This document shows positions 3,157 through 57,034 of a stretch of DNA of 57,034 nucleotides, in pieces. Below the pieces are notes generated by a model that saw only the letters and a program-made list of their open reading frames with translations, did not search any database and was not told the origin of the DNA. Position numbers and translations under genes: made by a program. Origin of the DNA: a virus. The DNA lies in IMG/VR virus record IMGVR_UViG_3300036886_000048, positions 1 through 57,034 of that record; one strand, given 5' to 3'. Each line of letters opens with the position of its first letter. Positions within the stretch are counted from its first letter, which is position 1.

Positions 3157-3561
3157 ATGGACACTACAGACGTTTACCGGGTTGAAGATATAGACGGAGC
3201 AGGAGCATTCACTTCAAGACACTTCTCCCTTTGTGACATGTTCGCAGAGTACCAGCTTAACTGGGTATACCCGTTTGCAGTTGAAGATTGCGGAAGGGAA
3301 CCATGTGAAGGCGAACTTCATGCAGTAAAGAGTTTGGAACTGTTGGCTTACTGGTTCCCTGCCGAAGCAGTAGAAGAAATGACAGGTATGGCAAGAATAA
3401 AGCACTACAGGGTTGACAGTGATAATGTAACGCACGGTAAGTTTCAGTTGATATTTGATCCGGTCCGTGCTGAACTGGTTGAAGATTTTCCTGTTTCAAA
3501 GCTGTTCGAACTTGTACCAGACTATCCCGATTTTGAAACCATCATTAGGAGGTTATCATGA
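3157..3561 (+). CDS. Hypothetical protein
   Basis: A 134-residue acidic protein with an excellent ribosome binding site (ACAGGAGG) and its own promoter. It opens with V-Y-R-V-E-D-I-D-G-A-G, and has V-K-S-L-E-L-L-A-Y-W-F in the middle, a layout I associate with small phage proteins of unknown role. The next gene is coupled through an ATGA overlap. Confidence 0.75.
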   Translation: MDTTDVYRVEDIDGAGAFTSRHFSLCDMFAEYQLNWVYPFAVEDCGREPCEGELHAVKSLELLAYWFPAEAVEEMTGMARIKHYRVDSDNVTHGKFQLIFDPVRAELVEDFPVSKLFELVPDYPDFETIIRRLS

Positions 3562-3713
3562 AATACTTATCTTTGTATACTACGCCTTGCGGCAACGATT
3601 TAGACTTTACATTGACTGCGGAATCAGCATGGAGCAAGATCAAGCCTATATCTGAATGCACACTGGTTCAGACGCGGGTTAGGGTTACGATCCATCACGG
3701 AACCGCTTACTAA
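3558..3713 (+). CDS. Hypothetical small protein
   Basis: A 51-residue protein starting at an ATG that overlaps the previous stop, with GGAGG seven bases upstream. It reads MKYLSLYTTPCGNDLDF and ends VTIHHGTAY. The initiation cassette GGAGGTTATCATGAAA is repeated exactly at the next gene. No family was recognised. Confidence 0.6.
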   Translation: MKYLSLYTTPCGNDLDFTLTAESAWSKIKPISECTLVQTRVRVTIHHGTAY

Positions 3714-3724
3714 CGGAGGTTATC

Positions 3725-3865
3725 ATGAAAGTATTCCACATCAAAATGTTGCTTGGAACCGGAGAATTAAAGCATGTTATCCGGGCGGCATACAACAAGG
3801 TCGAGGCAAGCCGTGCTGCATGTCTCGAATTCGATGGAGAACTGATTTACGTTATGGAGGATTGA
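3725..3865 (+). CDS. Hypothetical small protein
   Basis: A 46-residue protein, MKVFHIKMLLGTGELKH at its start, with the same GGAGG initiation cassette as its neighbour. The middle is helical with several Ala and Arg residues. It belongs to the run of tiny genes downstream of the promoter at 3104. Confidence 0.55.
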   Translation: MKVFHIKMLLGTGELKHVIRAAYNKVEASRAACLEFDGELIYVMED

Positions 3866-3869
3866 TGCA

Positions 3870-4046
3870 ATGAACTCAGCACTGCCAGTTTTGATAGCCT
3901 GCCTGTTGACGCCTTGCCCGACCACGAAAGAACCTTCCGCCCGGTACAGTCTCAGCACTCAGGCTAGTTCAATCGGCCTCAAGGCAACCGGTTCATTGTC
4001 GGGCTTCAAGCCATACGATCAATTGAGGGTTGCTAAAACCCATTGA
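3870..4046 (+). CDS. Hypothetical small protein
   Basis: A 58-residue open frame beginning MNSALPVLIACLLTPC, preceded by GGAGG at 3856-3860. The short hydrophobic start followed by Cys hints at export, but the lipobox is poor. Its end overlaps the -35 element of the promoter at 4043. Expression is uncertain. Confidence 0.4.
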   Translation: MNSALPVLIACLLTPCPTTKEPSARYSLSTQASSIGLKATGSLSGFKPYDQLRVAKTH

Positions 4047-23161: not shown

Positions 23162-24757
23162 ATGGCGTCAATTAATTCGTTTAATGCAGGATATGCTCCG
23201 CAAAATGATTTGTACACTAACAGGGTGGACAAGTATAACGATTACAGGGCGTCTGGAAATCTGGCAAATGTTTCGGATGTTACGGGGTTAGGTGTCACTG
23301 ATTCGACTACTACTCCAGTGGATACGCCTACTGGGGGTGGAGGTGGTGGCACGGCAATTACCGACGTTATAAATCCTACACCTACTCCTACCCCTCCGCC
23401 GATTACGCCGTATTCGCCTGCCCCGTACAATCCGTCGTACCCTACATCTAACCCTAGTCCGGGTTCATCCGTATCGACGCCTCACCCTACAGTTGCTCCT
23501 ACTACACCGGGTTCTTCCCCCACAATCACGCCTTATACCCCTCCTACATACGTCCCTCCATCTGCCCCAAATTTGCCTACAACTAGTTACAATAATCCTT
23601 ACAATAATCCGTCGAGTCCTTCGACAGGTTCTGCTGGCGGTTTAGCAACACTCGTTGGTGCTGGTGCGTTGATTGACAAGCTTACAGGCGGTACAATCTC
23701 TGGTTGGATAAAAGATCAATACGGGAATCTGGTTCCATCGACGGGCGGAAATACTGCAAACTTGACTTCTGGAGGGGTGTCTGCAAGTAATCCTGTAACC
23801 GGAAACCAATATAGTTTGGCTGGATCAAATAATATTACACCTACTGCAACTTCGCCTTACAGTTTGGCTACCAATTACACTGGCCCAACATTAGGTTTGA
23901 ACATGCCATCAAGTTCCCTTACGGGGAGTGTTACTGCCGGAACTGGCGCGGGTCTTTCAAGTCCCGGATTTTCATCGGCAACACCTGTTGATTTTAATAA
24001 TCCCGATTACAGTCTCGCGCAAAGTCCCACATCGTCTACTTTCGGAAACGGCGGTCAATTACCGTCCACGTCTGGAACCGATATGTTGGGAAACAATGTC
24101 GGTTCGATTCAAAATATGGCTACGGGAGCAGTTGCTGGAGCAATCGGAACAGGTCTTTTAAAAGCAGTGGGTGCGAATGGCCCAATAAGTTCTGCTGGAG
24201 GTTCGGCGATTGGTGCATGGGTTGCTGGTGCTGGCCCTGTCGGAATTATCGGTGCTGCAATTTTTGGTGCGATAATGGGTGGCGGTTTATTCGGCGGGAG
24301 CGCCCCTGTGCCGTATACACAAACGGGATTTAACAATATAGTATCGAATGCGGTTACTCCGGATACTGCCACATTAGGTTACGGCGATTACACTCCGCCT
24401 ATAGGAGCCGCCACAGTGACAGGTAATCCTGCCGCATATGTAAATTCCTATAACTACTCCGATCCTACAATGGCGAATGTGACTAAGGCTGCGACAATCG
24501 CAAGTCCTCAATATGCAACCGCCTTGAATAATTTTAACAGTCAAACAGGTGTAAATAATCCTGCCGCAATTCAACAGTACGTTGCTGCAAATAATATCAC
24601 GACTATTCCGCAATACGTCAAGGCAGTTAATAGCACTGGCGCAAACGCATATAGTGTCGGGGCTGCAATGGGTTTAACCGAACAACAAACCGCACAACAA
24701 CTTTTATTGGCAGGTTATAGTGTTGCCCCTAACGGATCAATTGTTACTAGTTATTAA
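23162..24757 (+). CDS. Probable internal virion (ejection) protein with glycine-rich hydrophobic core
   Basis: A 531-residue protein. Residues 50-160 are a Pro/Thr/Ser-rich disordered region. Residues of about 320-380 are long glycine-rich hydrophobic stretches (A-V-A-G-A-I-G-T-G-L-L-K-A-V-G, and G-I-I-G-A-A-I-F-G-A-I-M-G-G-G-L-F-G-G), which could insert in a membrane. The C-terminal 150 residues are helical. It has its own promoter and heads three more genes of ejection-protein type. A role in forming the DNA channel during entry is inference from composition and location. Confidence 0.6.
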   Translation: MASINSFNAGYAPQNDLYTNRVDKYNDYRASGNLANVSDVTGLGVTDSTTTPVDTPTGGGGGGTAITDVINPTPTPTPPPITPYSPAPYNPSYPTSNPSPGSSVSTPHPTVAPTTPGSSPTITPYTPPTYVPPSAPNLPTTSYNNPYNNPSSPSTGSAGGLATLVGAGALIDKLTGGTISGWIKDQYGNLVPSTGGNTANLTSGGVSASNPVTGNQYSLAGSNNITPTATSPYSLATNYTGPTLGLNMPSSSLTGSVTAGTGAGLSSPGFSSATPVDFNNPDYSLAQSPTSSTFGNGGQLPSTSGTDMLGNNVGSIQNMATGAVAGAIGTGLLKAVGANGPISSAGGSAIGAWVAGAGPVGIIGAAIFGAIMGGGLFGGSAPVPYTQTGFNNIVSNAVTPDTATLGYGDYTPPIGAATVTGNPAAYVNSYNYSDPTMANVTKAATIASPQYATALNNFNSQTGVNNPAAIQQYVAANNITTIPQYVKAVNSTGANAYSVGAAMGLTEQQTAQQLLLAGYSVAPNGSIVTSY

Positions 24758-27961: not shown

Positions 27962-30900
27962 ATGACCACTACTGTAAATCTCCCCGATGGAACCCAACTG
28001 AATTTCCCTGACGGCATGGACAACCAATCCATGCAGTCTGCAATTTACACGTCGTTTCCTCAGTACGCCCCAAAACCAGCTCCATCCTTTTTTGAACGGA
28101 CACAGCAAAAAATTGCTGCGGCGGTTGCGCCTACATCTGATGTTTCGGTTATGGATCAGATCAAGAATATTTCTAGTGGACAGATCAAAAATGCGACTGC
28201 CAAATTCAATGCCCCAGATAGTACGATAGGCTTCGATCAAAATGGAATCAGCGATACCGGAACTCGTTCGTTGACTCAAGCCATTCTAAACCAATCTCCT
28301 GTGCGGAAAGTAGAAACAAATCCTGCAACTCTGGAACCAGATTATGTTGCTCCGGTTCAACAATCGTTGACACCTGTCGAAACCGCTTATACTAACGTCG
28401 GAAAGATTTTGGATAACGCAAAGACAGGCGCAGTAGATTTAGCTGTTCCTCAGAATACCGAACAGGTTCTTGCAAGAGATTCACAAAACATGCATCCGAC
28501 TGAAAAACCTGTGGTTACTGACATTGGAAACGCCATTGCAGAAACTGCTAAAAGTTCAGGTCGTTCTATCGAAGATTTATATGCAAGTCTTGGCGGAGGT
28601 ATGCATATCCTTAACCAAGATTATGCCGCAGGAATTGTTGCAGATAACATGAAAGCTGGAGACAGCAGTTATCGTGCTACAAGGTTTCCCGGCAAAGTAG
28701 TTGAAAACGCATTGCCTTTAGTTCCAGCGGTGGCCTCGTTCTTTATACCCGGAGTTGGAGAGGTTTTAGGTTCGGCAATGTTGGCTGCTCAGTTTGGATG
28801 GGGTTCTGGAAAAGACGCGATAGATCAAGGGAAAAGCGTGGGTAACGCTCAACTAAAAACTGCAGAATATGCAGTACTTGGAACTTCGTTAGGAGGATTG
28901 GTAACAGGTGGAGCTACAAAAGCACTGAGTATAATTCCCGGAATCGGGAAAGCATTTGTTCCGGCAGCAGCAGATACTGTAGGACAGTATGCCTCAAGAA
29001 TGGCGCAAGGTGCTGCTGGAATGGCGGCATTTGTTCCTGTTGGAACAGCGATCAATCAAGGCACAGATGTTCTTACAGGACAGTCTGGCAAACCAGAAGA
29101 TTACCAATATATGCCTACCGTCGATCAACTCATGGCGGGCGCATTACTTCCTGTGCCTCATGCTACACGCGATTTTGTGCAACGCAATACGATGCCCGAA
29201 AAATATATCGGATTGCCCAACGGTGACACAGCAATGTCTCATAGTTACGGAGCACTTTTTTCGTCTGAAGATGCGGCAAATTCTTTCATAGAGTCAAACG
29301 GTTTAACTCGTGGATGGGAACCGCAAGCACTTACCGTTTCAGGCAACAAATTGGGTTTCGTAGTAAAAGCAAAGCCAGCATTGGAAGTGGACTTAACTCC
29401 TAAGCGCACTGCCTCTGATGGTTCAACACCACTTGATTTTTCTCAGCCTGAACCATCAACACAACCACCTATCCCGGAACTAACTGACGCAGTTGGCGGA
29501 ACTCCTGTTGGAAATCAAGAAGTTAATTCTCAGATGGCAAACGCATTCCGTTCTGCAACAGAGGATGCCGCATACAAACAAGTCGAACAGCAGAAACAGG
29601 CTTCAATCGAAAAGGCATATAACTTAAATTTTGCTGAGAACCAATTTCAAAAATATCAAGGAGAACAAAATGTCCCAAGAAACGAGACTGTACATCCCGA
29701 AATACCTACGCAAAGCACTCAAGGAGAAACTGGTGTCACCGGAGGAAGCACTGAAAATGGCATTCTACGATCAGATAATGGCGGGGGCGAGTCAGGGTCT
29801 AATCCAGTACGCCAAGATCAGCAAGGACTTAAAACAGTCCTCGACGCTGTTAAAACAGGAACAGATCAAGTTTCTAATGCGGGGCAACAAACTGAACTGA
29901 CAGGCCGTAGAAATCACATTGAGTCGGTTCCTCCAGAACTGGATCAACGCAGTGGTTTAGATCAACGCCATGACGAAATAATGCGTATGCAAGTTGCTCA
30001 CATGACTCCTGAAGAATTGCGCCATACTATTTTGCACGACGAACTTACCGATTTACCAAATCTTAGAAATTTCAACGAATCCCCTGTACAAGCGATAGTT
30101 GGCTTTGGTGACGTAAACGGATTGAAAGGGTTGAATGATACACATGGACACCCTGCTGGTGATGCATTGATAGCAGCTACTGGACATATTCTTAAAAAAG
30201 TAACCATATCTACAGGAGGTAGAGTAACTTTTTACCGCAGGGGAGGCGATGAATTTCTTGTATACGGCCCGGATGAAAAAGCTGTAAATGCCGCGATTGC
30301 ACTGGCCAGGAGAGAACTTAAAAAGGCATCTTTCGATTTTCAAACTATAGACGGACAAACGGGAACTCAAAAGGGTATCAGTATTGCCTTTGGTATAGGC
30401 AAGGATGTTGCATCAGCCGAAGTTAAAATGAAAGCTGACAAAGCTAGGCAAAAAGCCAACGGTGCAGCAGCAAGGGGAGAATTATCTTCAGGTTTAAGTT
30501 TACACAATCCTGTGCAAGACGCAACCAATAATGCAATTGACGCTTTGGCGCAACAGCACGGAGTTTCTACAACACCAGTTGCACCAATTGACGACCATAG
30601 AACACAGGTTCCAGCCGTAGCGAAGTTAGATAAAACTCTTCGCATCATTCAAAATTTGCCTGAACAACGTGTTAATCAAACAAACACATTACCGGAACCT
30701 GTCGAAATTCCAGCAAAAAACGAACAGGTTATTGAACAAAAACCTTCTACTCAAGTCCAAGGATTAAGGCCGATTATTGAGGACATGATCCGAAACAAAG
30801 TAGTTGCGTCAAGGCCGAACAAAGCAGGACAGAGATTAGACCTTGCTCCAGCTATTCAACGTGCCAAGGAAATCCTGTCAGGAACGCGCACAGCGACTCC

Positions 30901-33900
30901 GGCAGAAGTTTCGTGGTGGACACGTACTGCAAAACGTTTTGAAGGCGTGGATGCTCCTTCCGGGCAGGCAGCGAGGGCAATCATTGATTATCTCAAGTCA
31001 GGAAAAACAGAAATTCAGAAAAGTGTTCATGTTTACCCCGGAGAATCGACACCCGAAATTCTGCATAACCAAGACACCAAAAATGCGATCATCAAACAGG
31101 TACAGTTAGACCATCCTACGTGGGGTGATGCAATTACCAAGTTACTCGAACGTGCCGACAACGGACAACGGGGCGGTTTGGTAATTGGCAGTGAAAAAGA
31201 AAATCTGCAACGTGCCGCCGAAATGTTGGCACAGAAAAATGGCACTACAGTACAACATGAGCTTGACAGATTGAGCAGTGCAACGCAACAAAGTATTACC
31301 GTGATCCGTGCAAAAACCGAAGATGAAGCGCATAAAATTGCTTCCGCAGTCGGTGGTCGTGTTGGTTCTGACTTGCAAGGATGGAAAGTTGAAACAAGTA
31401 CGCCTGTAACTGGGCCGTTGCAATACAGTATTGCCGCTTATGAAGGATTATCACCCGAAGAAATAACAACCAATCCTTCCAGTAGCAAACTTTTAGGATT
31501 GCTCAACCGAGTGGAAAAAGCAAAGCGAACTGCGATTTTGCGCGGTCTTGTAGATGATGCGGGAAATTTGCATGTGTGGGCGGCACACGATGCGATACAC
31601 CCAGAAGGTGCGAAAGCCTCAGGTATACCTTACGACTATACCAAACGAGTGGTAATTACAAAAACCGAAGGACTTCCGTATTTTAGTTTCGTTGACTTAG
31701 GTATAAACAAATCTGACTTAATTAGGCGTTATGGAAATAACGAAGTGTTGTTTGATGTTCCGGGCAAAGGTATTGCAACAGGTGCAGAATATGCGAAACA
31801 GGAAAATATCAAATCCGATAAACTACTGCATGACTTGAGGATTGAACCTCTGCAATATAGCAAAAATCAAATGGGTTTTTATAGCCAATTGAAAAACGCG
31901 ATTGATTCGGCTTCGGATAAAATATTTACAACAGGGCAACAAGTTAAATCGTGGTTGGATGCCAACGCTGGAAAACTCGGAGTCAAGAAAGATGAAATCT
32001 ATTGGTCAGGATTGACAGAATATCTGGAAATGAACCCCGGCAAAATCACCAAGCAAGCCGTTAAGTCGTTCTTGCAGATTTACGGTAATGTCGAAGTCAA
32101 AGAAGTAACTCTTGGAGGTTTTAAAAACGAGTGGGAAATTCTAAGTGAACACACTGGAAAAAGAATCGGCGGAACGTACCCGACTGAACTTGCAGCCAGA
32201 CGTGCCGCTAACGATTCTCCAGTTGGTGACAATCCAATAGTAAATCAGGTACGTGCAGACAACACAGGAGGTGCACCAAAGTATTACGTTTATCAACTTC
32301 CCGGTGGAGAGAATTACAAAGAGCTATTGCTGACGCTTCCAGAAAAAAACGATTCTACAGAAAAACTAAAAGATGCTCTTGATAAAGAATACAGAGTGCA
32401 TGGAAATTCTGAACATTATGACGAGCTTCTGGCGCAGCAAAAAAAGATAAGGGATGAAAATAAAAATTTTACATCGCAGCACTTCAACGAAAAAAACATC
32501 CTTGTTCACATCCGATTTAACGAGCGCACTGATGCAAACGGCAAGAAGGTTTTATTCATTGAAGAAATCCAATCTGACTGGGGACAGAAGGGAAAGAAAG
32601 AAGGATTTGTAACCGATGGTAAATTGCCAACTGACTGGACGGTACACCAGACTGGCCCGGATGGGTCTTGGTATGTACTTGATAAATCCAATACCCAAGT
32701 TGGTATCTACGGACGAACACGCGAGGAAGCCATTGCGACAGCACTTAATCCGAAGGGATATACAGGTGGCGTATCTAATGCCCCATTCGTGACAGATACA
32801 AAATCATGGACGACCCTTGCGTTAAAACGCATGATTATCTACGCTGCAGAAAACGGTTACGATAAAATTGCGTGGACAACAGGAGAACAACAGGTCGATA
32901 GATATAACCTTGCACACCAATTACAAAAGATAACCGCAATAAAACGAGGCGACACGTTTCAGATTCTTGGAATTGGAACTGACGGACAATCTCATAATTT
33001 TGGGGATCATACCGTTGCAGAGTTACCAAATGTCGTAGGAAAAGAACTAGCCGAAAAAATAGCAAATCAAGAAATGCCGAATGAAGTGTACGCAGGAAAT
33101 GATTTGAAGATTGGCGGCGAAGGAATGAAAGGTTATTATGACCAGATCGTTCCGCAGGTTGCAAACGAGATTCTGAAAAAGGTTGGTGGTGGGAAAGTTG
33201 AGCCTGTCGGAATAAATACTAGACATGAAGGTGCGGTATCGGGTGAAATGGTGATGAATCAATGGCATATTCCGATGGACCAACAAGATCGGTATTGGCA
33301 TGACATGACTTTAACGCAACGTTATACTGCAATTCATGCGTTTAGATCGGAAAAAGATGTTCAACCCGGATTTGTTATTACCCCTGAATTACGGACAAAA
33401 ATTCAATCCGAAGGTCTGCCGTTATTCAGCAAACAAAACACACGCACGCCAGGTTTCTATAGTCCTGAACTCGGAACAGCGTTTGTCAATCATGACGAAG
33501 TATCCGTAAAAGATGCGAGTGCAATTATCCTCCACGAAATGACTCACTCCGCCGACACTAAGACGCATCCCACGGATACTGACGGAAGAATGACCATCAT
33601 TGGAAAACAAGTTGTAACGCGCATGAACACGCCCGGAGTAATGGGATTACCTGTTTACGCTCGTGTGTGGGACAGACTGGTAAACGCGGGAGAAACAAAC
33701 AATCCACGCGAAGCTTTGAATTATCTTGTGGAAGAAACTTTGAACGATGCCAAACGATTCGGTTATTCTCGACTGGACAAAGGATTCATGGGATGGCTTC
33801 AACGTCAAGGATTTGCTGTATCCAAACCTGTAAAGGAATGGGTTGCGAATATCCGGGCAGCAATGTACGAACACGGAATTTCTGTGAAGGTTGAAGATTT

Positions 33901-36900
33901 AACAGTGGACGACATGATTGCTGCTGCTACTCGCGGAATGAAACGTGTTGCAGAAGGAAAACAAGAAGTTGCCGGATTAGAAAATAAAGCAATCTTGAAT
34001 GTTGGTTTAGACATTCCCGGTGGAGGAAAACTCAATCCAGAAGATGTACGTTCAAGTGTTGAGAAACTCGGAGTAAAGGTTCTGAGTGAAAATCTTCATC
34101 AATCCGATACAGAAATGACTTCGGTTTTGAGATTGTCTCGCCCATTGACAAAAGACGAAGTGTATCAATTGGCAGTCGAACACAAGCAAGACGCGATTGC
34201 ACAACGACTTCCAAACGGAACAGGTTTCCTCGCTGGCCCCAAGGCCGCAGATTGGGGAGACTATAATCCTGAATATTTCAAAATGCCAAACGGAAAATCT
34301 GCATCCGAATCAAATACTATTCAAGGTTCGGAACGAGGATCAAAACCCGGAGAAATTTCTGTAACCGGAGTTCACTATGGCAAGAAACTTTTCTCAGAAT
34401 TAAGTGGAAAATTTTTCGGTACGGCTGGCGCAGGTGCTGAACGCGACTGGTTGAATAAATTGCCAAAAGACGATCCATTGCAAACTCGGCTTGCGTTTTA
34501 TGTGAACGAAGGAAACGGAACATTCCCTGAATTGCAGAACGGTGTGGGTCATGTTCCGCACGAAGTTCCATTAAACAATCTTTATGACGTTGGATCAAAA
34601 CTTATAAAGACTCCTGTGGGAGATTACGCCGCCTTTGAACATGAAGTTTTGAAACAAGGTTACAGCGGCTACTACATCAAGAATGCTCAAGGTGTTGGCA
34701 AACGCCAGCAAGGTGTTGCGGTTCTTCTTGGCGATGCTGCAAAATCGCTAACGGTTCCTTCGCAAATTCAATTTTCTAAAAAAGAAACATTTGAAAATCT
34801 TAAAACAACGGTTGATGATTTAGCTGACCGAGTTAAATCAAACAAATCTATGTCAACCGTTTCAAGCGGAATATCTGGCGCGTGGGACGGAATTCAACGA
34901 GCCTTCGCTCCGCAATATCGTTCGCCGGAAGCAAGAGAGGTTTCCAGAATTTTGATTGAAGGACTTGGCACAAAAGAAATGGAAGGAATCCGTTTCCGTG
35001 CCAAACTGAACAACGCGAGTAAAGTCAACAATGAAGAACTGACGCTTTCTCAAAAAGCCAGAGACATTGTTGAAAAAGGTTTAACGGTTGCCGCAGATAA
35101 AGTCTTTCTAAGAAACAGCAAGGAAGAAAACTACGCATTTATGCAGGCAATGGACACCGGAGATTCTGCTTATTTTTCTACACGTCCCGAACTAAAAAGT
35201 ATGGCATACGTGATGGGCAAAATGTTCTACGACAAAGCGCGAGAAGTTCAATCTCTTGGTACAGGCGCACTCGAAACTATCCGTGAAAATTATTTTCCCC
35301 ATATCTGGAACCGCGAACCTTCTGGTGATACACAACGTCAAATTATGACCGCACTTTCAAAACGTCCATTTGAAGGACAAAAAGATTTTGTCAAGGCGCG
35401 TATTTTTGATGATTTCAATGCCGGAATTAAAGCTGGACTCGAACCTGTTTCTGATAACCCTCTCGATTTAGTTCTACTCAAGATGGAGGAAATGGACAAA
35501 TATATTCTGGCGCATAAAACTCTTCGGACGATTGCAGAAAATTCAGACGCAGTTACATTGATTGGTGCTGGAGATAAAAAACCTGCCGGGTACGAGGATG
35601 TAAACGGACGATTCGGATTCATCACAATCGGAAATGAGAAACTCAGATACGTTGCGCGTGACGACGTAGCTCAGGTCATTAACAATTATCTTTCTCCAAA
35701 TCTGTATCACAATAAGTATGTCGGTAAATTATATACTGGCGGAATGTCAGCCGCAAACACTTTGAACCAGTTTCAACTTGGGGTTTTCTCAGCATTTCAC
35801 GCCGGGTTTACTTCGTTTGAAGCCGTTATTTCTCACGCCGCAGTAGGTATTAAGGCACTTTCTGGTGGAGATTTCAAAGCCGCTGCACATTATATTGGAA
35901 CTGCTCCGGCAGCATGGATCAATAATCCAAAGATGGGTGACAGAATTATAAAGGAAATGCTGACTAAAGGTTCACACCCCGAAATGGCTCAGATCATCGA
36001 AGGGCTTCAACTCGCCGGATTTAAGTGGCAAATGGATACTCGGTTAAGAACCGATTCCACAAAGAGAATGATTCAGGCTTGGGGCGAAGGGAGACAAATA
36101 GTTGCCGCCGCGCATTCGCTCAACGCAGTAGTCGAACAATCGGCTCGTCCGATTCTTGAGTGGCTTGTGCCTCGTCAAAAGTTCGGTGTATTCGGTGAAA
36201 TGTATAACAAATGGATTCAAGATAACCCGAATGCGTCACATGAAGAATTGAGGAATTCCGCCCAACAAATTTGGAACAGAGTTGATTCACGTCTAGGCCA
36301 AGTGGTATATACACGACTGTTCATGCACAACGTCACAAAGAATTTTGGACAACTTCTGCTTCGTGCGCCGGGATGGACAGGCGGAACGATTCTCGAAGTG
36401 GGTGGCGGCATGAAAGACCTTGCGCTTTACGCAAAGGATGTGGCAACAGGAAAAAATCCCGGAGAAATTAGTGACCGGGCAGCGTACACGTTGTCGATGT
36501 TGTTGGTAACTTCAATTTCAAACGCACTTCTGACAACGTTATTTACTGGTAGTGCGCCGAAAGATTGGAAAGACCTTGTTGCATTCCGCACAGGTAACGT
36601 AGACGAACACGGCAGACCAGAACGATTTATGCTACCCACATATATGAAAGACGTGTATGCGTATGCTCACGACCCCGTCAAAACATTGTTGCACAAAACT
36701 CACCCGTTGCTATCGGTAGTCTCTGACATTGCCCGAAACAGAGACTATTATGGAACCGAGATTCGTAGCGAGGACGACGGACTTTTAAGGCAGCTAGGAG
36801 AGGCAGCAGGGTACGTTGCTGGCTCGTTCGTTCCGTTCTGGATGAAAGGTGTTCAAAAAGAACACGCGAGGGGAGGTAGCCTTATGACTGAGGCTTTGCC

Positions 36901-37306
36901 TTTAGTTGGGGTTATGCCAGCACCATCGGACATAAATAAGTCGAGAGCCGAAATTCTAATGAGCGAATACAGTGCCGACAGATTGCCTCAAGGAACCAGA
37001 ACTCGCGCACAGGCAGAAAAGGCAGCAGCTTCGTCAGAAATTTATTCCGCTATCAGGAAGAACGACATTGCAAAAGCACAGAAACTATTTGCGGAAGATC
37101 AGGCAAAAGGAATCTTGACTGCTCAAGACTATCGAAAAATTGCCATGTCGTCTGGAAACAATTATTTCGTGAACACATTTAAGAAGTTGACTTACGAACA
37201 GGCAGTTCGAGTTATGGCAGTAGCAACTCCAACAGAACAAAAAGAACTTGCTTTTGTATTTGCCCGGAAAAGGGCAACCTTTATTCAGAAAGGCGGCAGG
37301 CCATGA
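27962..37306 (+). CDS. Giant polyvalent protein with GGDEF and zincin domains
   Basis: 3114 codons. The order seen is as follows. A short N-terminal domain (1-40) and hydrophobic glycine-rich helices (260-350) come first, then a disordered linker (about 555-660). A GGDEF domain (690-850) contains D-E-L-T-D-L-P-N at 693, the metal Asp717, N-D-T-H-G-H-P-A-G-D and an intact G-G-D-E-F at 761-765; no inhibitory RxxD precedes it. Polyvalent-type domains follow (F-I-E-E-I-Q-S-D-W-G-Q-K-G near 1535). A zinc peptidase motif H-E-M-T-H is at 1858-1862. A domain shared with the protein at 2605 lies at about 2030-2110. A possible ADP-ribosyltransferase-like region spans 2131-2264, and a long helical C-terminus has membrane-like segments. 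Known polyvalent proteins of this kind are thought to enter the host with the DNA. It directly follows the ejection genes, which fits. Domain borders are approximate. Confidence 0.85.
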   Translation: MTTTVNLPDGTQLNFPDGMDNQSMQSAIYTSFPQYAPKPAPSFFERTQQKIAAAVAPTSDVSVMDQIKNISSGQIKNATAKFNAPDSTIGFDQNGISDTGTRSLTQAILNQSPVRKVETNPATLEPDYVAPVQQSLTPVETAYTNVGKILDNAKTGAVDLAVPQNTEQVLARDSQNMHPTEKPVVTDIGNAIAETAKSSGRSIEDLYASLGGGMHILNQDYAAGIVADNMKAGDSSYRATRFPGKVVENALPLVPAVASFFIPGVGEVLGSAMLAAQFGWGSGKDAIDQGKSVGNAQLKTAEYAVLGTSLGGLVTGGATKALSIIPGIGKAFVPAAADTVGQYASRMAQGAAGMAAFVPVGTAINQGTDVLTGQSGKPEDYQYMPTVDQLMAGALLPVPHATRDFVQRNTMPEKYIGLPNGDTAMSHSYGALFSSEDAANSFIESNGLTRGWEPQALTVSGNKLGFVVKAKPALEVDLTPKRTASDGSTPLDFSQPEPSTQPPIPELTDAVGGTPVGNQEVNSQMANAFRSATEDAAYKQVEQQKQASIEKAYNLNFAENQFQKYQGEQNVPRNETVHPEIPTQSTQGETGVTGGSTENGILRSDNGGGESGSNPVRQDQQGLKTVLDAVKTGTDQVSNAGQQTELTGRRNHIESVPPELDQRSGLDQRHDEIMRMQVAHMTPEELRHTILHDELTDLPNLRNFNESPVQAIVGFGDVNGLKGLNDTHGHPAGDALIAATGHILKKVTISTGGRVTFYRRGGDEFLVYGPDEKAVNAAIALARRELKKASFDFQTIDGQTGTQKGISIAFGIGKDVASAEVKMKADKARQKANGAAARGELSSGLSLHNPVQDATNNAIDALAQQHGVSTTPVAPIDDHRTQVPAVAKLDKTLRIIQNLPEQRVNQTNTLPEPVEIPAKNEQVIEQKPSTQVQGLRPIIEDMIRNKVVASRPNKAGQRLDLAPAIQRAKEILSGTRTATPAEVSWWTRTAKRFEGVDAPSGQAARAIIDYLKSGKTEIQKSVHVYPGESTPEILHNQDTKNAIIKQVQLDHPTWGDAITKLLERADNGQRGGLVIGSEKENLQRAAEMLAQKNGTTVQHELDRLSSATQQSITVIRAKTEDEAHKIASAVGGRVGSDLQGWKVETSTPVTGPLQYSIAAYEGLSPEEITTNPSSSKLLGLLNRVEKAKRTAILRGLVDDAGNLHVWAAHDAIHPEGAKASGIPYDYTKRVVITKTEGLPYFSFVDLGINKSDLIRRYGNNEVLFDVPGKGIATGAEYAKQENIKSDKLLHDLRIEPLQYSKNQMGFYSQLKNAIDSASDKIFTTGQQVKSWLDANAGKLGVKKDEIYWSGLTEYLEMNPGKITKQAVKSFLQIYGNVEVKEVTLGGFKNEWEILSEHTGKRIGGTYPTELAARRAANDSPVGDNPIVNQVRADNTGGAPKYYVYQLPGGENYKELLLTLPEKNDSTEKLKDALDKEYRVHGNSEHYDELLAQQKKIRDENKNFTSQHFNEKNILVHIRFNERTDANGKKVLFIEEIQSDWGQKGKKEGFVTDGKLPTDWTVHQTGPDGSWYVLDKSNTQVGIYGRTREEAIATALNPKGYTGGVSNAPFVTDTKSWTTLALKRMIIYAAENGYDKIAWTTGEQQVDRYNLAHQLQKITAIKRGDTFQILGIGTDGQSHNFGDHTVAELPNVVGKELAEKIANQEMPNEVYAGNDLKIGGEGMKGYYDQIVPQVANEILKKVGGGKVEPVGINTRHEGAVSGEMVMNQWHIPMDQQDRYWHDMTLTQRYTAIHAFRSEKDVQPGFVITPELRTKIQSEGLPLFSKQNTRTPGFYSPELGTAFVNHDEVSVKDASAIILHEMTHSADTKTHPTDTDGRMTIIGKQVVTRMNTPGVMGLPVYARVWDRLVNAGETNNPREALNYLVEETLNDAKRFGYSRLDKGFMGWLQRQGFAVSKPVKEWVANIRAAMYEHGISVKVEDLTVDDMIAAATRGMKRVAEGKQEVAGLENKAILNVGLDIPGGGKLNPEDVRSSVEKLGVKVLSENLHQSDTEMTSVLRLSRPLTKDEVYQLAVEHKQDAIAQRLPNGTGFLAGPKAADWGDYNPEYFKMPNGKSASESNTIQGSERGSKPGEISVTGVHYGKKLFSELSGKFFGTAGAGAERDWLNKLPKDDPLQTRLAFYVNEGNGTFPELQNGVGHVPHEVPLNNLYDVGSKLIKTPVGDYAAFEHEVLKQGYSGYYIKNAQGVGKRQQGVAVLLGDAAKSLTVPSQIQFSKKETFENLKTTVDDLADRVKSNKSMSTVSSGISGAWDGIQRAFAPQYRSPEAREVSRILIEGLGTKEMEGIRFRAKLNNASKVNNEELTLSQKARDIVEKGLTVAADKVFLRNSKEENYAFMQAMDTGDSAYFSTRPELKSMAYVMGKMFYDKAREVQSLGTGALETIRENYFPHIWNREPSGDTQRQIMTALSKRPFEGQKDFVKARIFDDFNAGIKAGLEPVSDNPLDLVLLKMEEMDKYILAHKTLRTIAENSDAVTLIGAGDKKPAGYEDVNGRFGFITIGNEKLRYVARDDVAQVINNYLSPNLYHNKYVGKLYTGGMSAANTLNQFQLGVFSAFHAGFTSFEAVISHAAVGIKALSGGDFKAAAHYIGTAPAAWINNPKMGDRIIKEMLTKGSHPEMAQIIEGLQLAGFKWQMDTRLRTDSTKRMIQAWGEGRQIVAAAHSLNAVVEQSARPILEWLVPRQKFGVFGEMYNKWIQDNPNASHEELRNSAQQIWNRVDSRLGQVVYTRLFMHNVTKNFGQLLLRAPGWTGGTILEVGGGMKDLALYAKDVATGKNPGEISDRAAYTLSMLLVTSISNALLTTLFTGSAPKDWKDLVAFRTGNVDEHGRPERFMLPTYMKDVYAYAHDPVKTLLHKTHPLLSVVSDIARNRDYYGTEIRSEDDGLLRQLGEAAGYVAGSFVPFWMKGVQKEHARGGSLMTEALPLVGVMPAPSDINKSRAEILMSEYSADRLPQGTRTRAQAEKAAASSEIYSAIRKNDIAKAQKLFAEDQAKGILTAQDYRKIAMSSGNNYFVNTFKKLTYEQAVRVMAVATPTEQKELAFVFARKRATFIQKGGRP
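29670..29900 (+). CDS. Overlapping gene inside the polyvalent linker
   Basis: 76 codons in the +1 frame relative to the polyvalent gene. The ATG at 29670 has a perfect AAGGAG at 29658-29663 with a six-base gap. The product is a well-formed helical, basic protein (M-S-Q-E-T-R-L-Y-I-P-K-Y-L-R-K-A-L, then S-P-E-E-A-L-K-M-A-F-Y-D-Q-I-M). Over the same bases the polyvalent frame reads only a low-complexity Gly/Ser/Gln/Thr linker. The balance of evidence suggests that the small frame is the one under protein-level selection. No family was recognised. Confidence 0.6.
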   Translation: MSQETRLYIPKYLRKALKEKLVSPEEALKMAFYDQIMAGASQGLIQYAKISKDLKQSSTLLKQEQIKFLMRGNKLN

Positions 37307-42096: not shown

Positions 42097-42130
42097 GCGA
42101 TTTAACTTGGCGAGGGCGGTTAATAAACCT

Positions 42131-42159
42131 TGACTTTTAACCGAAGTTATGGTAAGATG
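42131..42159 (+). promoter_or_regulatory. Rightward promoter of the long RNA
   Basis: TTGACT (42131-42136), a 17-bp spacer and TAAGAT (42154-42159) with TG upstream. It is back to back with the leftward promoter and no protein gene follows before the terminator at 42596. Confidence 0.75.
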
Positions 42160-42349
42160 TATGCAAGGTTGTGAAATTGATTAAATGTTGCCCGACAAAA
42201 CTTAATTGGTATTCGGAACAACAATTTTGCAACCGTTGCCGCATGATCCCATGAGTCGATAGTAGGTGAATGGGAATGGTTCGTTACCGATAAAAGTAAT
42301 CCTCCGAATAACGTGAACGGAGGCGTCTATCGACAAAGCGGCAAGATTT

Positions 42350-42423
42350 CGAGGGGTAGCTCAGTCTGGTAGAGCTGGAGCCTCATAAGCTCAATGTCGC
42401 AAGTTCGAATCTTGCCCCCGCAA
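42350..42423 (+). tRNA. tRNA-Met(CAT), initiator-like, degenerate
   Basis: A cloverleaf can be drawn: acceptor C1-G7/C66-A72, D-stem GCTC/GAGC, anticodon loop CTCATAA, T-arm GCAAG-TTCGAAT-CTTGC, discriminator A73 followed by CC but no encoded CCA. C1 opposite A72 is unpaired, the hallmark of bacterial initiator tRNA. However, the three G-C pairs at the anticodon stem typical of initiators are replaced, and A3-G70 and G27-A43 are mismatched. It is embedded in the long RNA rather than in a tRNA cluster. Confidence 0.7.
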
Positions 42424-42543
42424 CCGAACTTAGACGTTACCGAAAACCGTAGATTACCGGGCAAGCCGCATTGCTACGTCAGTAGGGTAAATCGAAGTTG
42501 ACTTACGCCGGATGGAAAGAATCTGGCACGAATTGCAACAGAG

Positions 42544-42556
42544 AAGGAGGTGATCC
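42544..42556 (+). promoter_or_regulatory. 13-nt complement of the 16S rRNA 3' end
   Basis: AAGGAGGTGATCC pairs without mismatch with the universal 16S tail GGAUCACCUCCUU. No start codon follows at a usable distance, since the GTG within it leads to a stop after four codons. It is therefore not a normal ribosome binding site. Confidence 0.7.
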
Positions 42557-42595
42557 TAGTCTGAACAGACCCGAAGAGAGTCGATTGCAGTTTTA

Positions 42596-42631
42596 GACCA
42601 ACATAATTCCGGTTAGTTGGTCTTTTTTTTT
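42596..42631 (+). terminator. Rho-independent terminator
   Basis: GACCAAC (42596-42602) pairs with GTTGGTC (42616-42622), followed by nine T residues. It ends the long RNA and isolates the helicase promoter. Confidence 0.9.
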
Positions 42632-42649
42632 GCTCAAAAATATTTATGT

Positions 42650-42677
42650 TGACAGTTTTTTAAATTTGTGTTAAACT
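42650..42677 (+). promoter_or_regulatory. Probable promoter for the helicase operon
   Basis: TTGACA (42650-42655), a 16-bp spacer and TAAACT (42672-42677), directly after the terminator. Confidence 0.55.
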
Positions 42678-42678
42678 A

Positions 42679-42860
42679 CGAGCGTGTTCAAACGGAGTAT
42701 AACCCTCTTTTAATAACTATATCACTAAAGGTTTTACGTTATATACGTTGTTAGAAAGAGTAATTATATCCACAAAATACTAGATATTAATATTAATACT
42801 ATATACGCGAGAGAATAAACCGTTTGCTTTTTCTTGCGGTTTGTGCTAGTATTCGTGCCT
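42679..42860 (+). other. AT-rich region, candidate replication origin
   Basis: 180 bp without a gene between the promoter and the helicase start. It has ATATCCACA (42766-42774), one mismatch from the DnaA box, followed by about 30 bp of nearly pure A/T (42775-42805), and two TATATACG motifs. A hairpin AAACCG/CGGTTT lies just before the gene. The position between the divergent replication operons fits an origin, but the evidence is only compositional. The control region 42097-42860 as a whole contains no protein gene. Confidence 0.35.
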
Positions 42861-44315
42861 ATGGAACTTCGAACTTATCAATCAACCTGTATCGAAAATT
42901 GCCGAAAAGCACTCGCTGAGGCATTTTCTGTAATCTTGTTGTATTCACCCACTGGTTCTGGAAAAACGGTGGTTGCATCGAACATCATGGAACGAGCCGC
43001 GACCAAAGGAAAACGGGTTATTTTTGTGGTGAATAGGGTTCACTTGGTCAAGCAGGCCAGCAAACATTTAAAAAACATCGGACTCACTCACGGTATTGTT
43101 CAATCCGACAACACATGGGGAACTGACAGAAACGTTTTGGTGTGTTCTGTACAAACACTTACCCGTCGCGGTTATCCTGACGCAGACTTGGTGATAATCG
43201 ACGAGGCTCACGGCATAACTTCGGACACATACCAGCGACTGATCGAGTATTATCGTTCAAATAACGTTCCGATCATTGGTCTGACAGCCACACCTTTCAC
43301 CAAAGGGTTAGGAAAAACCTTCCAGAAACTAGTTGTGGCAGCGACGATTCCAGAATTGATTAAATTGGGGCATCTGGTAGACTGTGAAATTTATGCACCA
43401 CCGGGGCCGGATTTGACGAACGTGCCGATAGTGAACGGTGATTACGAAGAACAATCCCTTGGAAAAGCGGTAGACCAGCACGACCTGATTGCAGACATTG
43501 TTGATACGTGGCTCGAACACAGTGGAGGACTTTCGACAATTCTGTTTGCCACAAACATTTTGCATAGCAAACACTGTTGCGACGAATTCAATTCTCGCGG
43601 TATTCCGGCAGAGCATGTGGATTGTTACACTTCTGACGACGAACGGGAAGCAGTCCAGCAACGCTTCGATACAGGTGTCACACTCGTTTTATGCAATGTG
43701 GATGTGTACTCTGAAGGTTGGGACTGTCCGAGGGCCACAGTGATGATTCTAGCACGTCCTACGCGCAAATTAACTAGATACATCCAACGTGCAGGACGGA
43801 TTTTAAGACCGTTTCCGGGAAAAACTATTGGATTGATTTTAGATCATTCAAAAACGTCATGGGAGTTTGGTTATCCTACTGACGAACTGCCTTTGGAACT
43901 CAATACTAAAACGCCTGCGAAGAAAAGCGAACCTTCCGACAAAAAGGAAAAAATCGCAAAACCTTGTCCCAAGTGTCACTTCCTGATTCCCCCCGGAGTA
44001 TACCCGTGTCCGAAATGCGGATTCGCAATGCAGGCGCAAAACGAAATCGAAGTAGGGGAAGGAAAACTAACAAAACTCCAGCGTAAATACCTGTTTACAC
44101 CGGATCAATTGCAGGAATTCTGGGGCGGTTGTTTGTTCTTGGCTGAGAAGCGTGGAAAACCCCGGACATGGGCGGCAAGGCTCTACAGCGACATTACTCA
44201 CAAATGGCCTAAAGGTTTGAACGAAATATCTTGCAATCCCAATCAGACTGTGTTAAACTTCGACGTACACGCTAGGATTAAGGCGAGTTTTTACAACAAA
44301 AGGAAATCGTCATGA
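42861..44315 (+). CDS. Superfamily 2 DEAH-box helicase
   Basis: A 484-residue helicase from ATG 42861. Motif I is S-P-T-G-S-G-K-T (29-36), motif II D-E-A-H (114-117), motif III G-L-T-A-T-P (140-145), with later Y-S-E-G-W-D-C-P and motif VI Q-R-A-G-R-I-L-R-P. A zinc-ribbon-like C-P-K-C ... C-P-K-C-G lies near 371-388, followed by a C-terminal domain. The layout resembles the SSL2/UvsW-like phage helicases that act on forks and recombination intermediates. No strong ribosome binding site is visible. Confidence 0.85.
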   Translation: MELRTYQSTCIENCRKALAEAFSVILLYSPTGSGKTVVASNIMERAATKGKRVIFVVNRVHLVKQASKHLKNIGLTHGIVQSDNTWGTDRNVLVCSVQTLTRRGYPDADLVIIDEAHGITSDTYQRLIEYYRSNNVPIIGLTATPFTKGLGKTFQKLVVAATIPELIKLGHLVDCEIYAPPGPDLTNVPIVNGDYEEQSLGKAVDQHDLIADIVDTWLEHSGGLSTILFATNILHSKHCCDEFNSRGIPAEHVDCYTSDDEREAVQQRFDTGVTLVLCNVDVYSEGWDCPRATVMILARPTRKLTRYIQRAGRILRPFPGKTIGLILDHSKTSWEFGYPTDELPLELNTKTPAKKSEPSDKKEKIAKPCPKCHFLIPPGVYPCPKCGFAMQAQNEIEVGEGKLTKLQRKYLFTPDQLQEFWGGCLFLAEKRGKPRTWAARLYSDITHKWPKGLNEISCNPNQTVLNFDVHARIKASFYNKRKSS

Positions 44316-56653: not shown

Positions 56654-57034
56654 TGAAGAAATCGCTGACACAACTCGGAAAAACTGGTTTATACTATATC
56701 TTTGATGGAAATAAAATTTTCGGATCACATAGAGGCTTGCGCGGTGACGTAACATACTTGAGCGGTGACGTAACACACTTGCGCGGTGACGTAACAGGCT
56801 TGCGCGGTGACGTAACAGGCTTGATCGGTGACGTAACACACTTGATCGGTGACGTAACGTACTTGAGCGGTGACGTAACATACTTGAGCGGTAACGTAAC
56901 ACACTTGATCGGTGACATAACATACTTGATCGGTGACGCAACGTACTTGAGCGGTAACGTAACACACTTGATCGGTGACGTAACACACTTGATCGGTGAC
57001 GTAACATACTTGAGCGGTGACGTAACATACTTGC
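56653..57034 (+). CDS. Heptapeptide-repeat protein, N-terminal part (runs off right end)
   Basis: ATG 56653 with AGGAGA upstream. A 28-residue head (M-K-K-S-L-T-Q-L-G-K-T-G-L-Y-Y-I-F-D-G-N) leads into at least 14 G-[DN]-[VIA]-T-[YHG]-L-[SIR] repeats and the frame is open at the end. Position 7 alternates among Ser, Ile and Arg, and position 5 among Tyr, His and Gly, so surface residues vary on a fixed frame. It continues at base 1 with the acidic tail. Function unknown; a fibrous or solenoid protein is likely. Confidence 0.75.
   Translation, partial: MKKSLTQLGKTGLYYIFDGNKIFGSHRGLRGDVTYLSGDVTHLRGDVTGLRGDVTGLIGDVTHLIGDVTYLSGDVTYLSGNVTHLIGDITYLIGDATYLSGNVTHLIGDVTHLIGDVTYLSGDVTYL
56740..57034 (+). 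repeat. 21-bp tandem repeat array, right end
   Basis: Fourteen copies of the 21-bp unit (ggtgacgtaacatacttgag type) up to the last base. The last copy stops after TTGC; the left end resumes at AACAGGC. This is the same array as at 1-150. Confidence 0.95.

Follow-up and report, generated by a model that had tools for sequence, protein, structure and literature searches.

A gap between divergently oriented genes of a tailed phage very probably encodes an autonomous structured RNA, the core of which is conserved in a related phage. In the best reading of the sequence, to which we assign a probability of roughly 45%, the phage would make this RNA early and dock it on 30S subunits by their 16S tail, in competition with Shine-Dalgarno mRNAs.

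A predicted noncoding RNA between the Erf and helicase genes

The window analysed here is the whole of IMG/VR virus record IMGVR_UViG_3300036886_000048, a stretch of 57,034 bases from a tailed phage with genes for portal, major head protein, DNA polymerase, Erf, helicase, primase, terminase, SSB and NinB. The RNA locus lies in the gap between leftward polymerase, exonuclease and Erf genes (Erf start at about 42096) and the rightward helicase gene (ATG at 42861). Tandem arrays of 21 bp with a similar unit (AACAGGCTTGAGCGGTGACGT) are found at both ends of the record (1–148 and 56736–57033), which may be a circular genome cut within one array or a linear genome with terminal arrays. Positions 27962–37306 encode a protein of 3,114 amino acids, equal in length in the related phage; an endolysin family and families of unknown function match it weakly.

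A sigma-70-type promoter, TTGACT-17-TAAGAT, is present on the plus strand at 42130–42158, with TG preceding the −10 element and the first helix of the RNA starting 8–9 nt past it. An intrinsic terminator on the same strand (42595–42631) consists of an 8-bp stem, AGACCAAC/GTTGGTCT, followed by nine Ts ending at 42631; it scores z −3.8 against shuffles and has three compensatory pairs in the related phage. Transcription of an RNA of about 466 nt from the plus strand (42166–42631) is predicted from these two signals. Stop codons occur in all six frames of this interval, with 7–11 in each plus frame; the longest plus frame has at most 42 codons and the longest minus-frame run 53 codons. The promoter with a 17-bp spacer, the nine-T terminator and the roughly 460 nt without a coding frame, all described in an earlier sequence-only reading, are thus as reported there. 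Host sigma-70 polymerase would make the RNA, which would therefore probably be early.

The core of the RNA is conserved in a related phage

Searches with TerL and Erf identified one close relative, IMG/VR 3300036884_000014 (41,728 bases), whose terminase, Erf and helicase are 83%, 77% and 74% identical to those of the window. Its Erf–helicase gap contains, at the corresponding place (24120–24294 of its contig), an RNA of about 176 nt that shares a 5′ domain, a three-way-junction 3′ domain and a terminator with the window RNA. The promoter of the relative is TTGACT-16-TATGAT, and the spacing of 7 nt from the −10 element to an AGG is equal in both phages. An open frame of 150 amino acids (segment positions 3553–4005) lies between Erf and the RNA in the relative, with none at that place in the window.

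The two RNAs are not aligned by blastn, and automatic MAFFT alignments put the 3′ domain in the wrong place. The two sequences were therefore aligned by hand, guided by each sequence's own fold, with gaps placed manually with N. In the resulting 44-pair core structure 94% of cells are paired, and 11 of the 44 pairs are changed on both sides between the two sequences. None of 500 shuffles reached 11 compensatory pairs, and sliding the partners by 1–3 columns left only 0–1. These results, from two sequences, indicate that the core is a conserved structured RNA, so that the autonomous structured noncoding RNA proposed from the window alone is borne out by covariation in a related phage.

A covariance model of the core matched only the window and its relative in the IMG/VR viral collection, where scans with helicase and TerL alignments likewise gave no third member; a search of the genome collection found no member. 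Single-protein scans with helicase and portal did not recover the relative. When phages and plasmids were searched by blastn, the window RNA matched tRNA-like stretches only, and the relative's RNA gave chance-level matches only.

Fold and domain layout

Three elements, all on the plus strand, make up the predicted fold of the core: a rod at the 5′ end (P1/P2), a junction of three helices (P3/P4/P5) and the terminator. The 5′ domain (42167–42234) is built of conserved pairs in P1 (42167–42177/42224–42234) and P2 (42186–42190/42219–42223). All 11 pairs of P1 are kept in the relative, two of them by compensatory changes, and P2 has four compensatory changes. The 3′ domain (42530–42593) is the three-way junction, in which P3 (42530–42538/42585–42593) joins two hairpins. 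P4 (42539–42563) reads CAGA-GA-AGGA-GGUGA-UCCU-AG-UCUG and is 87% identical to its counterpart, compared with 53% for the sequence outside P4. P5 (42568–42582) reads GAC-CCGAAGAGA-GUC and is 86% identical, with a conserved loop and a closing pair that is compensated in the relative. The pairs of P4 hardly vary, while P1, P2 and the terminator have changed by compensation; this is consistent with a hairpin in which the sequence itself is important.

Between the two core domains the window RNA has a middle insert (42235–42529, about 295 nt) made up of a rod closed by TTGCCGC/GCGGCAA, a tRNA-like domain, a second rod and a hairpin (GCCGGAU/AUCUGGC), and absent from the relative. The whole RNA folds moderately better than shuffles (z −2.2) and the conserved core of the window does so at z −3.2; the insert as a whole is no better than shuffles (z −1.3). 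The region does not stand out in fold scores from a sliding 200-nt scan, but the core domains by themselves do.

P4 contains a complement of the 16S tail

The sequence AAGGAGGTGATCC at 42544–42556 on the plus strand is a perfect complement of the 3′ tail of 16S rRNA, matching nucleotides 1529–1541 of E. coli exactly. The comparisons used the tail of E. coli, whose sequence is near-universal in bacteria. In the RNA the full 13-nt complement, AAGGAGGUGAUCC, falls within P4, where it is partly self-paired and has GGUGA in the loop. It is the only exact match to the tail in the window, the next-best runs being 10 nt or shorter. The P4 of the relative, AAGGAG-U-GUGAUUC(C), could still pair along all 13 nt of the tail, at the cost of one bulged U and one G.U pair. 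The extended 16S-directed segment noted earlier is thus confirmed in the window, and its pairing strength is largely retained in the relative: predicted energies are −25.3 kcal/mol for the window and −18.1 kcal/mol for the relative. Opening P4 is predicted to lose −8.9 kcal/mol, against the −25.3 kcal/mol gained by pairing with the tail.

When both strands of each genome were ranked for pairing with the 16S tail, P4 was the best partner among 28,506 windows of sequence in the window phage (next −18.6 kcal/mol), and the orthologous P4 was the best among 20,852 in the relative (next −16.9 kcal/mol). In both genomes P4 outscored every computed first-ATG Shine-Dalgarno site. Conversely, when 4,420 stretches of E. 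coli 16S and 23S rRNA were compared, the 16S tail paired best with the two RNAs taken jointly. P4 is thus the best site for the tail in both known members (n=2), with imperfect complementarity in the relative. A second 16S complement, of 10 nt (nucleotides 1422–1431), lies in P1 and is missing from the relative. An exact 18-mer around the P4 motif had two matches in IMG/VR, both in unrelated sequences; the combination of a tRNA T-arm with a similarly spaced 16S complement after it gave five, all unrelated.

Alternative explanations

The chances that P4 acts through 16S seem to us evenly balanced. It is possible, though we think it unlikely, that this is a conserved structured phage RNA independent of 16S, in which P4 and P5 bind a host or phage protein and an AGGA...UCCU hairpin merely happens to complement 16S. 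P5 is conserved like P4 yet has no 16S match, which would suit protein binding, and for the relative's RNA taken alone the 16S tail comes only 22nd when rRNA stretches are ranked, stronger partners being predicted elsewhere in rRNA. Drift simulations gave a chance of retained pairing strength of 0.7–6%, according to the constraint assumed, the upper value being for drift that preserves the hairpin. An accident would nevertheless have to account for a 13-nt exact match within 466 nt, which is very unlikely by chance, and for the orthologous hairpin ranking first for pairing with that tail in the relative's genome as well. The motif might instead be the true Shine-Dalgarno sequence of an overlooked small frame, as for RyeG, a prophage RNA described as associating with 30S subunits and in which a small reading frame was found (PMC8545117). 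Similarly long extended Shine-Dalgarno sequences do precede real genes elsewhere: IMG/VR 3300031616_000003, which has 27 tRNAs in 3.5 kb, carries the 14-nt example AAAGGAGGTGATCC after one tRNA and before a GTG start. In neither of our two phages, however, is there an ATG, GTG or TTG at working distance or a shared frame behind the complement, and the sole frame in the window (CTG, 11 codons) has no equivalent in the relative, which has stops immediately after the motif. The motif is therefore not an ordinary ribosome-binding site, and we consider an overlooked frame very improbable.

The position of the RNA, directly upstream of a rightward operon and ended by a terminator, would also be that of a cis-acting leader controlling the helicase operon, either as an attenuator or as a polymerase-modifying antiterminator comparable to the HK022 put RNA. 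This is improbable, in that no alternative anti-terminator helix is evident and two more promoter-like sites, conserved in the relative, lie past the terminator, so that the operon is seemingly independent of read-through. The stretch at 42649–42810 contains a second promoter, TTGACA-17-TAAACT, a conserved leader (GAGCGTG..AACGGAGTAYAACCC) and an AT-rich stretch, and is possibly another RNA or a replication start. The sequence-only reading had named a GOLLD- or ROOL-type ornate RNA with a passenger tRNA as its alternative. The window RNA does resemble these in being phage-encoded and structured, with a tRNA within a variable internal segment, and GOLLD linkers sometimes hold tRNAs, GOLLD itself binding ribosomes in pull-downs (PMC12286853). 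Rfam searches of both phages, at the gathering score and at E values up to 10, nevertheless returned neither family, and the core of about 176 nt compares with 659 nt for ROOL env-120 and more than 800 nt for many GOLLD RNAs (PMC12286853); membership of either family is highly improbable. A CsrA/RsmA sponge was set aside on sequence grounds, the GGA motifs of P4 being paired and those of the relative few.

The tRNA-like domain

ARAGORN identified a tRNA-Met (CAU) at 42350–42425 on the plus strand, and Rfam gave a tRNA match of 55.6 bits, the only credible match for the window RNA even at an E value of 10. A tmRNA, with its tRNA-Ala-like domain and tag reading frame, was among the families that the sequence-only reading proposed to search for; neither program reported one, and the RNA is not a tmRNA. 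A tmRNA gene does occur near tRNA-Lys and tRNA-Met genes (segment 1109–2045) in a 462-kb unannotated record of an uncultured phage. The acceptor stem of the tRNA-like domain has C1.A72 and A3.G70 mismatches, and its 3′ strand, CCCCGCAACC, is that of E. coli metZ; a further mismatch, G27.A43, lies in the anticodon stem, and there is no CCA. Among three initiator hallmarks checked only C1.A72 is present. The D stem has C11:G24 in place of A11:U24, and the anticodon stem (A29-U41, G30-C40, C31-G39) has no run of three G-C initiator pairs, both stems being of elongator type. The description of this domain as an initiator-like tRNA thus holds for its acceptor end only, and not for its D and anticodon stems. 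It has the look of a tRNA that has degenerated or been put to another use, not of a functioning initiator, and weakness in the outer part of its acceptor stem may prevent its excision.

No tRNA was found by ARAGORN in the 41.7-kb contig of the relative, which is partial. Since the relative has neither the insert nor the tRNA, and the insert folds no better than shuffles, it seems that the tRNA belongs to the window lineage, as a passenger or recruit, and is not a founding part of the RNA. The core would have gained the tRNA-carrying insert in the window phage, or the relative would have lost it, which is also possible. The earlier proposal that all three parts of the RNA are aimed at the small subunit is not supported, as the tRNA domain is restricted to the insert of one phage and lacks two of the three initiator hallmarks.

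Proposed mechanism

Binding to 30S subunits is a candidate function of the RNA. The GGUGA loop of P4 would meet the free 16S tail first, after which the hairpin would unwind and about 13 bp would form, and the RNA would thereby dock at the anti-Shine-Dalgarno site of free 30S subunits. Such a competitor would lower Shine-Dalgarno-dependent initiation during takeover and favour messages that do not need a Shine-Dalgarno sequence, such as that of the neighbouring helicase. We regard this effect on translation as tentative and less likely than not. Many genes of both phages have normal Shine-Dalgarno sites, so that masking the anti-Shine-Dalgarno sequence would hurt the phage too, and any effect could only be incomplete or limited to certain times. 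Less likely still is the fuller scheme of a trans-acting RNA that captures 30S subunits by the whole anti-Shine-Dalgarno tail, diverts initiation from Shine-Dalgarno-led messages during infection and has acquired a tRNA-like domain, not excisable, that tightens its grip on the subunit. The first ATG of the helicase has a weak Shine-Dalgarno score. It lies 8 nt (window) or 7 nt (relative) past a conserved extended −10-like box, TG-C-TAGTAT (42825–42863 with the ATG), and at this distance the helicase mRNA may be leaderless and perhaps insensitive to the RNA.

Relation to known RNAs

The nearest analogue is GOLLD, an elaborate phage or prophage RNA whose 3′ part is conserved and whose variable part can hold tRNAs (PMC12286853). 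The analogy is one of layout only, the tRNA of the window RNA lying in an insert that the relative does not have; GOLLD differs in the lack of an Rfam match and in size, the core described here being much smaller. We know of no 16S-tail complement as a feature of GOLLD, and the window RNA has one. ROOL is alike in being a phage RNA of large size and structured fold, frequently located close to tRNAs (PMC12286853), but differs in size and fold and again in the lack of an Rfam match. The noncoding RNA of ICP1 is described as the most abundant transcript of that phage (PMC7567579), and an RNA of about 180 nt from phiKZ as sedimenting partly with 30S subunits (PMC8545117). By description these are likewise phage transcripts without reading frames; anti-Shine-Dalgarno targeting is not among the features given in the portions of those accounts available to us. 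In Bacteroidia, ribosomes are described as sequestering the 16S tail from Shine-Dalgarno pairing (PMC9976891); as far as that description goes, this is done in cis by a ribosomal-protein pocket, in contrast to the RNA proposed here to act in trans. A limited literature search found no phage RNA aimed at the anti-Shine-Dalgarno tail.

If P4 pairs with the 16S tail in cells, this would be a phage RNA that directly targets the anti-Shine-Dalgarno site, and a route of translation takeover for which that search gave no RNA precedent. It would also provide a small system in which to test how large tRNA-bearing phage RNAs such as GOLLD act on ribosomes. Even if 16S plays no part, the locus would hold a previously undescribed, covarying phage RNA whose core acquired a tRNA-bearing domain in one lineage or lost it in the other.
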